A stretch of DNA of 64,000 nucleotides from Malachius bipustulatus (Eukaryota; Arthropoda; Insecta; Coleoptera; Melyridae). The first letter of the stretch is position 1; every line of letters starts with the position of its first letter. The notes below the pieces were generated by a model that worked only from the letters and a program-made list of their open reading frames with translations, was not told the DNA's origin and did no database searches. Below, one piece after another: positions 23,201 through 53,300 of this stretch. The position numbers and the translations under genes are program-made. The stretch covers positions 41,865,735-41,929,734 of the forward strand of contig OU342636.1 in assembly GCA_910589415.1 (NCBI GenBank), in the 5' to 3' direction.

Positions 23201-26200
23201 GTTATATAATTTTAGCTAAAAATTATTGAAGAAGGTCTTACCGCACTAATCTAAATAATAGACAGCAAAAAATTTGAAAACTAACAGGAACGAATGCAGG
23301 ACTAAAAATTTGGACTTGAATTTTGAAAAATTAAAATTTTATAAATTTATTGTCAAAATGTAAAATATGAAACAAAGGAACGAAAAAATTATTCACACAC
23401 CCTTCCCTACTAACAATGATTGCCACGAAAAAGTGCGATAAAATACTAGTCCATAATGATTTTCAAGATTACTGCATCAATAACAATAGAAAGAGACAAA
23501 ATACAACACAAAATTATGGCCTATGAATTATCAAGTAAGAATCGTAACTAAGTAAGAAAACGACTTGTTATTTTTCAAATCTCGGATTAATTCTACATAC
23601 TTTCTACACATACTACGTACAAAGTAGAATTTTTAAATAAATTTCATATAATTTATAAAAACCAACAACTCGTTATAAAAATTATGCCTACCTGGATAAG
23701 ATAAACATTGCATACACGATGCATTGTCTTTATCTGGTTCCGTTATAGCCATTATATGATCAACAGCCTTGTTTTTATCTGAGATGATTATAAGGTCCTT
23801 GAATTGCATATCATTCTGCACTTCGAATTTTATCATTGTGAAAGAACATATCTTAAATAGACAGTTGTTTTCATCTAATCCACAGATCATGCTATAATAC
23901 AGAGAAACTTCAAGTTAGTTTCAGAAAATTTTCTTACGTAAGAGAGTAATTCGAGAAAGTGGACCATTAGAAATGCTTATACAGTGAGTTTCTTTTTCAA
24001 TGAAACATAGGGATTTACATACATGTAAAGATTTTGCCTTGTGTTAATGGTTTTCCACACTACCTTTTGAAGGTGGCAATGGAAGCAATTTTTTTTTAAA
24101 TAAAACGAAAAAGTGCAATATTTCCTACTGATTTTCAAAACTAGTTAGCTGTGTTTGTTCACTGACGTCTATCACATCTTTGACATTTCAACAATACATG
24201 ATTGTTTAAATCAGTTCTAAATTATCAAAATAGAATGGAAAAAATGCCAGAAGTACTGAAGAAAAGATGGGTATGGTGATTTCTTACATAAGAGGTCTTT
24301 TTGTAGATAATTTCGTGATAATTTTGCTGCTCAATTACCTAACAGACCTATTTCTAGTAAAGAAGACAGAAGGCAAGTATACTCAACGATTAATTCATAA
24401 AACAGTGAATTGTAGGTCAATGAGTATAAGCACATAGAGTGCTTATACTCATTACTAGCCTGTTAGGTGGGTTCGGAGAATTCCTCCATCGCCCATAACA
24501 GTTGTCATGCTGGCAGTGCCCGAAACTCCAACTAGAGAGTTTGCTTCCGCATCCAACAGCAGAGCCTTCCAGAGTACTTTTGTGCTTGATTTGGTACTCT
24601 GGAAGGCTCTGCTGTTGGATGCGGAACCAAACTCTCTAGTTGGAGTTTCGGGCACTGCCAGCATGACAACTGTTATGGGCGATGGAGGAATTCTCCGAAC
24701 CCACCTAACAGGCTAGTAATTGCACTCTATGTGCTTATACTCATTGACCTACAATTCACTGTTTTATGAACTATTTCTAGTATTTTGAGGTATTAGTGGA
24801 TAGCGGTTTGAGTGTATATTAGTTTGGATAGCGATAGATGATTAGAGGTTTGCTTAGTGGTAGAAGAATAGCATTCAAGTAGTTTGTCAAAAATACCCAA
24901 TCAACTGGGAGTATCTAAAAGCAGCTGTTACAGGGTTTTAAAAAAAAAGAAAAATTTTAAAGCTACAAAGTTCACAACATACAGGAATTTTTAAAAAGAG
25001 ACTTATCCGATAATGGAATTACGCGAATTCTGGATGGAAAAATTAATAAAAATCCAAATGAAGAAAATTGAATTTTGTTTTCTGAAGATAAAACATTTAT
25101 GTTGAATGGTAGTATCAATAAACAAGACACCAGAATATGGTCACGAAAAAACCTGTACATTTTTCAAGAAACTCACACAGTGGCCACAGAAACTCAATGT
25201 GTGGGCAGGAATTCTGGGGAATCATATTATGGGGCCCTTTTTTATTGGATAGTCTTTAAATAGCGTTAAATATTTTCAGCAACTTAGAGAAAATTTCCGC
25301 CTCTTCGTAGAGTTCATTTGAATGGACAAGTACTCGTGAAGTTACCCATTGCTTACTTAAGTAATAAGTTTGTCGAATTGATTGGAAGCATAAATAATTT
25401 AGAAGAACTGAAGAATCCAATTATTGAAGCTTCCAACACAATAGATATTAGACAGTTACAGAATGTTAAGCGGAATTTTCGTGAAAGATTGGGTCATTGC
25501 TTAGCAGCTTCTGGGAGACAGTTTGAACATTTGCTTTAGTTTTTTTTTTTTAATTCTTGTCTTATTAATAAATTGCTTGCTGTAAGTTGTGTATTCTTCC
25601 TTGATTTTAGTAATAATTATAAAAAGGCAGTCTTAGGTTAAGATTTAAAACTAATTTAAACAATTCATTATCTATTAATTGAAATGTCTTTGATAGACGT
25701 CAGTGAACAAACACATCTTAAACTACATAGTTAGGAAAATCAGTAGAAATCATTCCAGTTTTTTCATTTTATTTAAAAAAGTATTGCTTCCATTAGCACC
25801 AAACCTTCAAATTGTCGTGTATAATAATGTGTATCATGATCCAGAGAAAAAAAATTTCACAAATTTACTCCAGGAAAACCATTACACGAGGTAAAATTTT
25901 TACATGTATTACATTGAAAAAGAAACTCACTGTAATGATGACTTAGCAAACATAGAACTTTGAAAAAAAAGTTCAAAAATATCTAAAAAAAAAAAGAATA
26001 TAGCAGACAGAAAAATATTTTTGACATTGTTAGTAGTCTTGTATTCTTAGCTATTCTTTGGTTCCTAGCAAGATTTGCCTTGCAAGAAAGCCTAGATTTG
26101 CCTTAGATTTCTAATGGTCCACTTTTGCGTATCACTCTATATTTTAGATCAAACACTTTATATTTACTTAATTATTTGGAATTTAATTATCAAGTATTGC

Positions 26201-47300: not shown

Positions 47301-50300
47301 AACCGCATTAATGTTTCTATTTGTTTCCCGTTGCCTATCATTTGTCACTGTAGGGAATAATGTTTGAATTCTTGCATTGTTTGGTGTAATTGAATTATTT
47401 CCTCTATTCGTTTCTCCTTGCCTGTTATTTGTTACCGCAGGGACATTATTTCCTAAAAAAATATTAATACTTTAGAACGCAAGATGGAATTTTGACAAGG
47501 ATTATTTATTCAATACTTTAACAATTAAAAATTACATCAAAAAGACGAAAATTACATCACAACCAAATAAAAATAATGAAAATGACGTAATCATCCCTGA
47601 TTTTCTCAAAAATTGCCCAACACAGCTGAAAAGTACCTATTATAGCACCAGAAACAGCTATTCAATTGTAACAAATGGTACATTATAATAATAATAGCTT
47701 TATTGCCCAACAGTATTACCATATTTTTTATTGTTATTTTGAAGACTAATAAAAATATGCCCTTTCAACAATAATTACTTGACAAAGCTCTATTTTTGTT
47801 TTTGACACAGATCAATCGACTTAGTTTCCTTTCCACTCTAACAAAATAATTGTGCAGGCTACTTTTTTAATTCTCAGTAGGTTAAATCTTTCAAATTTCA
47901 ACCATCACGTTTTAACTTGCAAAATTATCGACAAAACGTTTAGATTTTTATGATTGAAGGTTCAATTTTAAAACAAGATTTTACTTTCAATTACCTGGTG
48001 TAAAAGATCTTGGATTTATATCTAAGGCTTCATAAACATTCAAGTCGCATCCTCCTAAACATAAGACATTTGGATTCGGCTCGCCTGGAAAAGGATTTTG
48101 AGTAAACTTGATCTTTACTTTTTTTGTATCAGGCCTGCACTGAAAAATATAAAAATCATATTCGAAGTAATTATTACTTACAGTTCTTGATGTATTAAAG
48201 GCATAAGTAAGCTTTCAAATTTAATATAATAAATAAAATGAAAATAAATTCAAAATTAATATAATTCAAAGAGGAAATTTATGGTATTTGTTGAAGTCTA
48301 CTTTTTTGCTCGGCTATGAGTATTTATATAACCTATGGTTTACTGGTATGCAGCAATGTTCTTTTAATTATTTGTGTTTTCCAGAAAGTGTATAAAATCC
48401 CAAATTGGTTCAAGAGTGATTTAAGAATGGAAGTATAGACAAGAGTGATAGTGGGGACTGATATAAAATGTGGCCTGAGGTTGAGGATGTAAAAGACACA
48501 TCAAAAAAGAAAATGATGACTATTAGAGGAGTTGAAACCAGCCACATAAAATCATAGAACAAAAATATTATGTGATGAAAAAAACAATGAAGTATAGGAA
48601 CAGCATCGGAAGGTCTAAATAAATACATGTAAAAAGAATAGAAACATAATTAATTAAGGTAATTTGATTTGATTGTAAGGAATTAAATGATATCCAGTTT
48701 GAAATATAGATGACATAGTGATACCATTTGATTATTTAATCTTAAAGGAAGGAAGGTTGATCACACAGGTAATTCTTGACTCCTGAACTTTTGCATACCC
48801 TATCCGAGAAGCGAGGGTGGCTACAAGAAAACAACACAACGAGAAGTGGGTCCTAGCGGCATTTTCTAGACGATCATCGGGGGTAGGGGGGTGGTTGTTA
48901 CAATATTAAAGGTTAGGAGTAGAAAAAATAATATTATGTTTTATGGTGAAATTAATAAAATAATTGTATCAAAGTATAAAAATCTACTCTTATACAGGGT
49001 GAGTCATTGATATGGGAAAGTTCGATTGCACCTACACTATTAAAGATATCGAAATGAACCAAAAAGTGCTGTAAATGGGAGGGTAAAGTGCAGTTTGTAA
49101 AATTATTTTCAGATACACAGGATGGCCCAATATCGCTGTACGCCATACAACTTTGTTATTTTAAATAGGATACCCTCTATATTATTACATTTTCATATTG
49201 TTTGCGAAAAGTCAAAAAAGAATGGTTTGTAAAGTTGAAGTTTGTAATGAACGATTTATGAGTTATAAACAAATGAAAATCGCGATTTTCCATTTTCAAA
49301 GCAGCTTATATTGAAAACGGCTCGAGATATGGAAAAACGGTTTACATGTTCCTATCTTAACTTTTCAAGCGGTATCCTATTGGATGTATGAAATTTTTAT
49401 ACAGAGTGGTGAATAAATTTGATTATTTTCATCACCCGGTATAAAAATTTCAGCTACATGATAGGATACCAAATTAAAAATTAAGATAGGGACATGTAAA
49501 CCGTTTTTCCATATCTCGAGCCGTTTTCAATATAATCTGCTTTGAAAATGAAAAATCGCGATATTCATTTGTTTATAACTCATAAATTGCTCATTACAAA
49601 CTTCAACTTTGCAAACCATTCTTTTTGACTTTTCTCAAACAATATGAAAATGTAATGATATAGAGGTGTCCTATTTAAAATAACAAAGTTGTATGGCGTA
49701 CAGCGATATTGGGTCATCCTGTGTATCTGAAAATAATTTTACAAACTGCACTTTACCCTCCCATTTACAGCACTTTTTGGTTCATTTCGATATCTTTAAT
49801 GGTATAGGTGTAATCGAGCTTTCCCATATCAATGACTCACCCTGTATAAAAAAGGCAAACACAAATAAACTAAAAAAAAAACTACTAGTAAAATTTAAAA
49901 AAATCGAAATGAAGTTATCAGTTACTACTTGCTAATAATTTAGTTAAAATCAAATGAAAAAGTACCTGAGCACACTCTTCGTCCAATACTTCTATTGTGT
50001 TCACCATTCCAGGTAACCAAAGAGCCCCTTTGCATGCTGGATAACCAACGCAGGCAATATATTTTCCGGCGTTATTCTTTTTATTCCTAACAAAACAAAC
50101 TGTAATATAGTAATTACATTTAAATTATCGATGGACATAATTCTTAATAATATGAATGACACGAAATAAAGAGAAAATACAGGGAAAAATATTTCAAAGT
50201 GTTTTTCTTTTTGCTAATGGAATTCGGGTAAGTCTAAATAATTTTATTCACAGTGTACATCTAGAACAGCTCACAATACAGAAAAACAGTTTCCGTTTTC

Positions 50301-53300
50301 TATATTTTGAGCCGTTCTCAATGTACAGGGTGGCTAAATTTCACTAATGTTTGAAATTTGTTTGCGAGATTCTTAGACATGTAGTTTTTAAAATATAGCT
50401 GGTAACCAACCTTAACCAAGCAGTCCACTTGAATTCACTACTTATTTAAACATGAATTTTTACCCTTTTATGTACCTAAGTACCATATATGAGAAAACCG
50501 TAGATGTGGGCAGGAGTAACAACAATGCATCACAGTCATCACATTCCCACACGCGGGTTGTGTATAATATTTATGGCCATTTCACTCGCCGAACATACGA
50601 TCGTGGTGTGGTGAGTAATTCAAACAGACAAATACAACCAATACAAGGATTAACAGACTAATGGACCAGTTCCATTTAACGAAAGTTAACAATTAAAAGA
50701 TTAACGGATTGACGAGTTAATGCCCACCTTTGTTGATTACCCACCTGATAACCATATCGTTTCCACACTTTCCACACTTCATGACAGGCTTGTATTCCTC
50801 CTGTCTAACATTAATTGCATCCTGCTGCAACGGCACAGGTTGTTCATTGAGGCGATTTCCGAGAGTTCCATCTATCACACCTAACCTTTCCATAACTGTT
50901 TTGAATACCTCTTTGTATTTATTTATCTGTTCTCGCCGAACCACATCTACATCTTTCACGCCATCACAAATTAGTTTCAAGTCATTCTCAAAGTTGGCAC
51001 GGAGCAAAGGTTTTGCTAGAGACACTTGAAGGCCAATATTGTTGTATCTGGAAGTAATTAAAGAATCTTACATTAAAAAACAATTACACATTAATAAGAC
51101 CAAAATCAGTGAATAATCGGGGCTAGGATGTATCGTTTATGAAAAAACTTACATAAATAATTTTAACGGGCATTTACGCTCTAACCTAGGGCTTCCTGAG
51201 GCAGACCAAACACACAGAGCCATCCAGTCACCTCGAAGCTGTAGACAACGCTGTTTCGGTCTCTTTATGACCTCATCAGTATAGCACATCGAGAAATAAC
51301 TAGAGGATGCATGCCAGGTCAGTCCAGGAAGCCAACTCTTAAATGAAAAATCGACACGGAACTCCGTGACTTCAAGAGCTGATTGCCATCTACCGATGGA
51401 GACAAGAACTAACGGCAGCACGACTGCTTGCTTGTGTCCATTCCCGATGGACTGTAATATATTATTTTACTTTTACAACTGTCCAATATGTTAACAGTTG
51501 ATAAACATCTGCTAAATATAATGTAAATAAAAGAAGAGCTCACCCTTCAACAAGACCCATTCCCAGAGTCCCAGGTACAAAGTAGGTGTTCTCGTGAAGT
51601 CCCACATATTCCCTTGATTTGATGGTATCAATGTGTTCAGCATGCGTAGCATCAGTCCCAATGCCATGCTTATCCATCAGTGCAATCAGTTCAGCTTCTG
51701 TGAGCAGTTTGGGGGCACTTGTTGAACTTTCTACCTATTCAGAAGAAGTATTATGACAAAATTATACCATGTTGGCTACATGATGCTAGGTAGGTACAGA
51801 AGAAAGACAGCTATATTCGGGTGCATGCACATTAAGAGAATATAGAGAATCAGACGTTGTCATATTGATATTGAAATTTACGAACCAACATCAATGTTCA
51901 ATGTTGACATTTTATCCGTGACCACTCAATATAATCCTGTATCTAGTACACAGATATTTCACTTTTTTTAGTCAAACATGTTTGATAATTTTTAAATTTC
52001 TACATAGTAGCTACTTACCATTTCTAAAACTGTAGGATTAAATGTATCTCCTTGTTGGTAATTATTAATTTCTTTCGTATTCCATTTTTCATACACGTAC
52101 ACATCCAAGTAGTTCCTTTCTAAAATGATCAGACCTTTGGCAATGAATTTTTCACCAGCAATGTCTACATTGACTACTGTTTCAAAGCCTTCAGCATCCT
52201 TATGGACACATGCTAAGAAATGTCTTACGATAAATTCGTACAAGCGTTGTTCATTACCAGTTAGCGAATTTGTATACTTTGTTGGATGAATTGGAGGATG
52301 GGCCTGAAAATGTGGGAAATTAATAATAAATTTTCTCTTGCAGCTAGAATCTTAACTAGAATCAGCTCTGGTGGTTTATGAACTCAATGTTTTCGTTTTG
52401 ATCACCTTTTGTCTGTATTTTTTACGAACACATATTTTCAAGTTTTATGTTTTAATTGAATAAAACAACTTAATATAATGACTTTAATTATTATTTTGGG
52501 AATTATCTGACTGCATAAATAATTTCATAGCTGCAAGAGATGTTAGGGATCAGTGTCCATGAAAAAATTGTTTGGAAATACTTTGCATAGATATGAAACA
52601 TTCAGTAGTTGTATTTATTATAATAATTTAAGGATAGATAGCTTTATATTTAGACGTCGAGGTCCCCACCCGGTTTGAAATATTGCAGACAAGAGAGGAG
52701 AGGATGCTGCTGCTGTTCAAATAGTCTTCTTGAAGAATATTTTCGTGAATACTTACCTTCATAGGTAAATTACCTTTCTATAAAATTAAATAGTCGCTGT
52801 AAAATAATTTTTACCTGATTTTTGGGTACATTTGGTAATATTGATTTATTCTTAAAATTACATTATCAAAAACACTCATAACATACACCATTAACACTTG
52901 TCAGTGTCCTGTCAAATGTATGATAACAAGCTGATCATTCTCACAATTCATAGCCTACTAGGTCTGAATAGAGTTGAAACAGAATATAACAAGTAATTCT
53001 TTAATCACCCTGCGCAAAACATACTAAATTACCTGGTCTGATTTTTTTCCTTGTCTAGGTCTTGGACCTCCTTCGTTCATTACCCTGTTAGCAAAACCAC
53101 CCCACCGTGGATCATCTCTTTGCATCTCAACTAAAGGAGTTAAATTTAGTTCTTTAGGAAAAATGTTTGTTTCTGTTCTGGGATAACTAATAAAACCTTG
53201 AGTGTATAACCTTTCAGCAATCTTCATAGCTTCTTTAGCATTAATTTTTAGCTTCTTAGAAGCGCTCTTTTCCATTTCCTGAAAAGAAAAGGGAATAATT

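Follow-up and report, generated by a model that had tools for sequence, protein, structure and literature searches.

On the minus strand at positions 51293-51232 of the window, the 64,000-nucleotide stretch of Malachius bipustulatus DNA analysed here, lies a complete type I hammerhead ribozyme (HHR) motif which is probably the ribozyme of a non-coding, non-autonomous retrozyme of about 433 nt, copied in trans by the machinery of Penelope-like elements (PLEs). As far as its sequence can tell, the repeat carrying the motif fits the description of metazoan retrozymes and the insertion footprint of PLEs together. PLEs have been proposed as the movers of animal retrozymes from co-occurrence (PMC7229834; PMC7761336); insertion footprints can test that proposal from genome sequence alone, and here they agree with PLE mobilisation. 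The motif is more informative on the spread of such elements than on TOP3A, the gene in whose intron it lies.

The hammerhead motif and its host intron

The following features were located in this part of the window:
51232..51293, minus strand: complete type I HHR motif, predicted cut between 51244 and 51243 (sequence, HH9 match below cut-off, genome pattern)
51273..51279, minus strand: core block CUGAUGA (sequence)
51255..51257, minus strand: core block GAA (sequence)
51280..51285, minus strand: 5' strand of inner helix I, GCUAUA, with base 51282 (A) opposite C at 51241 (sequence)
51048..51543, minus strand: host intron of the TOP3A gene, 496 nt (splice sites read in the sequence, flanking exons)
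51544..51734, minus strand: TOP3A exon piece upstream of the intron (Topoisom_bac, E 1.3e-17); its start is that of the open frame, not of the exon

Read from 51293 to 51232, helix I is formed by the 5' strand CUCGA-UGU-GCUAUA and the 3' strand UACAGC-U-UCGAG, with outer pairing CUCGA/UCGAG and an internal loop UGU/U between its halves. Helix II is GGUC/GACC with a loop of 7 nt, helix III is ACA/UGU with the loop GCGU, and C17 falls at 51244. The arrangement is that of the type I definition (CUGANGA...GAA...H17, three helices, open at helix I), with one helix I mismatch, and the hammerhead is confirmed as a sequence motif. The first-pass annotation had the coordinates, core blocks, helices II and III and the GTC triplet right, and its cleavage site agrees with the one predicted here. 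It also correctly described helix I as long with an internal loop, but overlooked that the third pair outward from the core is an A-C mismatch (GCUAUA/UACAGC), where other copies read GCUGUA; the equivalent pair is G-C in 51 of 57 copies. The modelled energy of the HHR fold changes from -15.2 kcal/mol in a consensus-type sequence to -9.0 kcal/mol in the window copy, whose minimum-energy fold differs from the HHR fold (z -0.61). In the consensus-type sequence, too, the HHR fold is not the minimum (-18.7 for the minimum-energy fold vs -15.2). Because of the helix I mismatch, self-cleavage by the window copy is doubtful.

The covariance-model search, proposed earlier as a check, gave a divided answer. 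The window motif had no match at the Rfam gathering cut-offs, and a scan of the whole window to E 5 returned no hammerhead, while a scan restricted to 251 bases matched Hammerhead_HH9 (RF02275) at 19.1 bits (cut-off 52; E 0.022). HH9 is the best Rfam match of this copy, which differs in belonging to a high-copy mobile repeat; a consensus-like copy scored 24.7 bits. Chance occurrence was considered and ruled out by pattern counts: the core-plus-helix-II pattern matched once in the window and never in the reversed window, and the strict HHR core pattern matched 87 times in the 544-Mb genome (46 forward, 41 reverse) and 0 times in the reversed control.

The placement of the motif on the sense strand of a TOP3A intron, also claimed in the annotation, was borne out by the neighbouring exons and the splice sites. 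Among six exon pieces searched against Pfam, four matched Topoisom_bac and one a GRF zinc finger, with no Pfam match for the piece at 50717-51067; one exon matched TOP3A structures in the PDB (chain 4cgy_A, E 1.6e-39). On the minus strand the intron donor GT is read at 51543/51542 and the acceptor AG at 51049/51048.

A dispersed repeat of 433 nt

The motif lies within one decayed copy of a dispersed repeat, in support of the retroelement origin at which the annotation had hinted:
51152..51441, minus strand: retrozyme copy of about 290 bp, truncated at its 5' end, with a single arm that ends untailed at site A (repeat mapping)
51436..51452, minus strand: short inverted repeat GTCCAT-CGGGA-ATGGAC at the 5' junction of the copy (sequence)

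Reverse-complemented, the first 12 bases of this inverted repeat give ATTCCCGATGGA, a sequence of the unit itself, and the repeat may possibly be what remains of a head-to-head junction. When window positions 51150-51420 were searched against the genome, 40 of 1030 candidates were scored and 55 matches listed, copy numbers in the genome being lower bounds; the best matches listed, the window itself aside, were 91-98% identical to the window copy. From 37 loci picked for likeness to that copy, 63 pieces were mapped. Between successive cut sites, as measured in locus L042, the unit is 433 nt long, with one HHR. Copies are 5'-truncated, single, tandem or head-to-head, and tandem copies reach up to 1.82 units in the 37 loci, with adjoining units following each other directly and with no ORF between them. 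Mapped 5' ends are scattered over unit positions 34 to 406, and none of the 63 falls in the interval from 27 nt before to 33 nt after the HHR cut site, in a selection that would miss the 92-nt products of cut RNA.

Per-site divergence across 59 copies was 0.024 in the HHR vs 0.053 in the other 239 positions, and 16 of 239 windows of 62 nt diverged as little as the HHR or less. The core (CUGAUGA, GAA, C17) was intact in 49 of 57 copies, 25 of which also kept all 18 pairs. The 57-copy set omits L024 as a duplicate of L017: these two loci, both on C6 and about 0.57 Mb apart, hold the same insertion with the same flanks and units 0.4% different, and are a duplication of one locus, counted once. 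The copies were too alike for covariation in the HHR, with mostly wobble changes, such as U-G at pair 13-52 in 10 of 57, and a double change at one pair only (4-59, in one of 57 copies).

In its canonical-size type I HHR and its non-coding tandem unit, the repeat resembles the metazoan non-LTR retrozymes described in PMC7229834, where they appear as tandem, non-coding repeats of 150-450 bp with low GC and a type I HHR. The likeness extends to low GC and a highly self-paired predicted circle (44.6% GC and 69% paired in the one unit computed). The 433-nt unit, however, exceeds the retrozyme RNAs of about 170-400 nt reported there (PMC7229834), and most of the copies read here are short, either truncated singles or head-to-head pairs, with at most 1.8 units in the 37 loci.

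The annotation had further suggested that the ribozyme could act on the TOP3A pre-mRNA, and a selected role of this kind, cutting the intron during transcription, would be in keeping with the intact core, the sense orientation and the apparent activity of conserved amniote HHRs in mRNA biogenesis (PMC7229834). Such a role is highly improbable and was rejected as the main reading, given that the motif is a copy of a dispersed repeat found on both strands (46 forward, 41 reverse) and that its helix I pair is broken and its modelled fold weaker. The HHR does not belong to the gene by design, though it may cleave the TOP3A pre-mRNA.

Several further hammerhead-like sequences were seen. A second HHR loop type (CTGATGAGGTCTAAGAGACC) occurs in several places in the genome as opposite-strand pairs 0.2-0.6 kb apart, and therefore appears to mark a related subfamily that also inserts head to head. 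Six HHR-like motifs lay outside units in the 37 loci, three of them 34-172 bp from a unit end and on the strand opposite to the adjoining plus arm (L019:3991, L042:3847 and L044:3884, all minus), perhaps reflecting insertion beside other HHR-bearing elements. A different hammerhead, with a palindromic helix III CGGUACCG, was read at L042:3806-3853 on the minus strand, where Rfam Hammerhead_1 matches at 28.1 bits (E 0.0024), below its cut-off of 34.

Two classes of 3' ends and their pairing

Measured from the cleavage site, the 3' ends of the copies fall into two classes about 40 nt apart. A ends follow GTTATTTATGAA near +93 and are untailed, whereas B ends carry an extra CACCGCTCTATTA and then (TTA)n, ending at about +115 to +148, near +130. 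Classing by a tail-motif score against a 99% null, with three pieces below 75% identity left out, gave 29 A, 28 B and 3 unclassed ends in 60 pieces.

Among the 18 independent head-to-head pairs with both arms classed, 16 combined an A with a B arm (P 0.0007 at equal odds) and two were A/A (L018, L025). The arm classed A is uncertain in five pairs (L014, L018, L020, L031, L038), in which the alignment continues beyond +110 in AT-rich sequence; when these were removed, 12 of 13 pairs were A/B (P 0.0017). As a test of one circular template, the inverted arms of a locus were compared: they were a median of 0.043 apart vs 0.071 between loci, but often had their nearest relatives elsewhere, so that a single template for both arms is no more than possible. 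At L018 the sequences beyond the two arms resemble each other in inverted order, and the palindrome may therefore reach beyond the element.

Taking the longest exact word common to the outer edges, with a threshold of at least 10, target duplications of 10-14 bp were recognised in 13 of 21 two-armed insertions and absent at 10 bp or more from the other eight; 3 of 16 single-armed insertions shared an edge word of at least 10. Mismatched loci reached 10 in 2.1% of 420 and in 1.8-3.6% of 56 comparisons. The 16 duplicated words are 83% A+T. No duplication of 10 bp or more was detected in any of nine B-type single insertions, nor for the window copy.

5' truncation and target duplications are features of LINEs as well, and B-type ends stop in a (TTA)n run, as copies made by a LINE-type reverse transcriptase might. 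Against this origin, which we regard as very unlikely, the (TTA)n run occurs internally in tandem copies and is missing from 29 of 57 classed ends, and the mixed A/B pairs match a PLE family resident in the same genome.

Comparison with Penelope-like elements

PLEs of the Penelope/Poseidon type are described as carrying head-to-head inverted pLTRs, one of which may bear a 31-bp tail at its 3' end, and target duplications of 8-10 bp (PMC3846280). A PLE protein studied in vitro cuts and extends both DNA strands, favours AT-rich DNA and starts reverse transcription (RT) inside the RNA at two adjacent sites which define the tail (PMC11167929). In that element the HHR cut lies 26 nt into the ORF and the RT starts lie at 111-118 nt, about 85-92 nt downstream of the cut; mutation of the HHR does not abolish insertion in vitro (PMC11167929). 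The copies described here share with these elements the head-to-head arms, the optional tail on one arm, the short target duplications, the AT-rich sites and the two start sites downstream of the HHR (PMC3846280; PMC11167929). Unlike PLEs, the unit has no ORF, and no RT plus GIY-YIG ORF joined to it was found with 150 of 775 GIY-YIG candidates scored. The sampled part of the open-access literature contained no description of retrozyme copies with tails or in A/B head-to-head pairs.

PLEs reside in the same genome. A GIY-YIG search, in which 150 of 775 candidates were scored, gave many matches in open frames of 823-855 aa, in arrays with a period of about 3.3 kb. A piece of one array unit matched the RVT_1 domain (E 2e-11); of five further PLE ORF ends, none had a Pfam match above the curated cut-off. 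One 84,009-base contig (G000:C11) carries 24 GIY-YIG matches with a period of about 3327 bp, 21 of them in 833-aa open frames; the array runs 6 minus then 18 plus, with the strand switch between 20.2 and 26.0 kb.

All six pLTR regions read contained an HHR-like motif, CTGAnGA...GAAA, with the core CTGAAGA in five of the six PLEs where the repeat unit has CTGATGA; the unit had no sequence similarity to these six regions at E 0.1. Six arm ends were fetched for one PLE family. Counted from a cut site presumed by motif reading, two of them fall in the range of about +84 to +86, one of these short arms (L054) matching poorly over its last few bases, and three in that of +125 to +128; the sixth was not located. 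Both pairs with two readable arms were mixed. An inverted repeat of 5-8 bp, about +25..+67 / +66..+116 past the cut, was present in the six pLTR regions and in the unit (combined P 0.0015, for a stem picked after seeing the folds, with two of seven tests below 0.05); it is without covariation support because a variant subfamily carries a mismatch there.

An unsampled autonomous PLE might instead have the unit as its pseudo-LTR, the copies being its truncated ends, with no separate retrozyme involved. The insertion footprint is that of a PLE, resident pLTRs carry HHR-like motifs, and the scored GIY-YIG matches are 150 of 775, all of which would suit this explanation. We nevertheless judge it unlikely: tandem units adjoin without an ORF, the 87 strict HHR sites are all at least 15.8 kb away from the 150 scored matches, and a PLE RT piece occurred in one of 37 loci only (L019), decayed and with other sequence between it and the unit. 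A mixed PLE/retrozyme insertion suspected at L019 was likewise unsupported, the RT piece being separated from the unit.

Proposed mobilisation

For a separate retrozyme moved by PLE machinery, cleavage, RNA circles and the action of a PLE protein in trans are steps that we infer. Tandem copies would be transcribed, and the HHR would cut the RNA into units, which a host ligase may circularise by analogy with published retrozymes. A PLE protein acting in trans would bind the RNA downstream of the HHR and cut AT-rich DNA on both strands. Each DNA 3' end would then prime reverse transcription within the RNA, either at site A, about 93 nt beyond the cut, or at the tailed site B, about 130 nt beyond it, and cDNA synthesis would proceed back through an uncut HHR and halt at scattered points, leaving 5'-truncated copies. 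Where both ends are extended, the two cDNAs would join head to head between short target duplications. The window would hold one single-armed, untailed insertion of this kind, in sense orientation within the TOP3A intron and with a helix I pair now broken.

More tentatively, retrozymes of this kind could be satellites of PLEs which copy a PLE template module without sharing its sequence, the HHR being kept because the PLE protein loads on that module. As part of this satellite reading, the module would consist of the HHR followed, at a set distance, by a stem framing two internal RT start sites. Were the reading true, the footprint would identify the enzyme moving animal retrozymes.

Other features of the window

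A near-perfect hairpin at 24548-24622 matched mir-296 at 37.7 bits, below the cut-off of 66; an inverted-repeat element is a likelier identity for it than a microRNA. A foldback of about 840 bp, at 49000-49839 in the TOP3A gene region, is MITE-like in appearance, with arms at 49000-49174/49665-49839 (97%) and 49215-49413/49428-49626 (89%).
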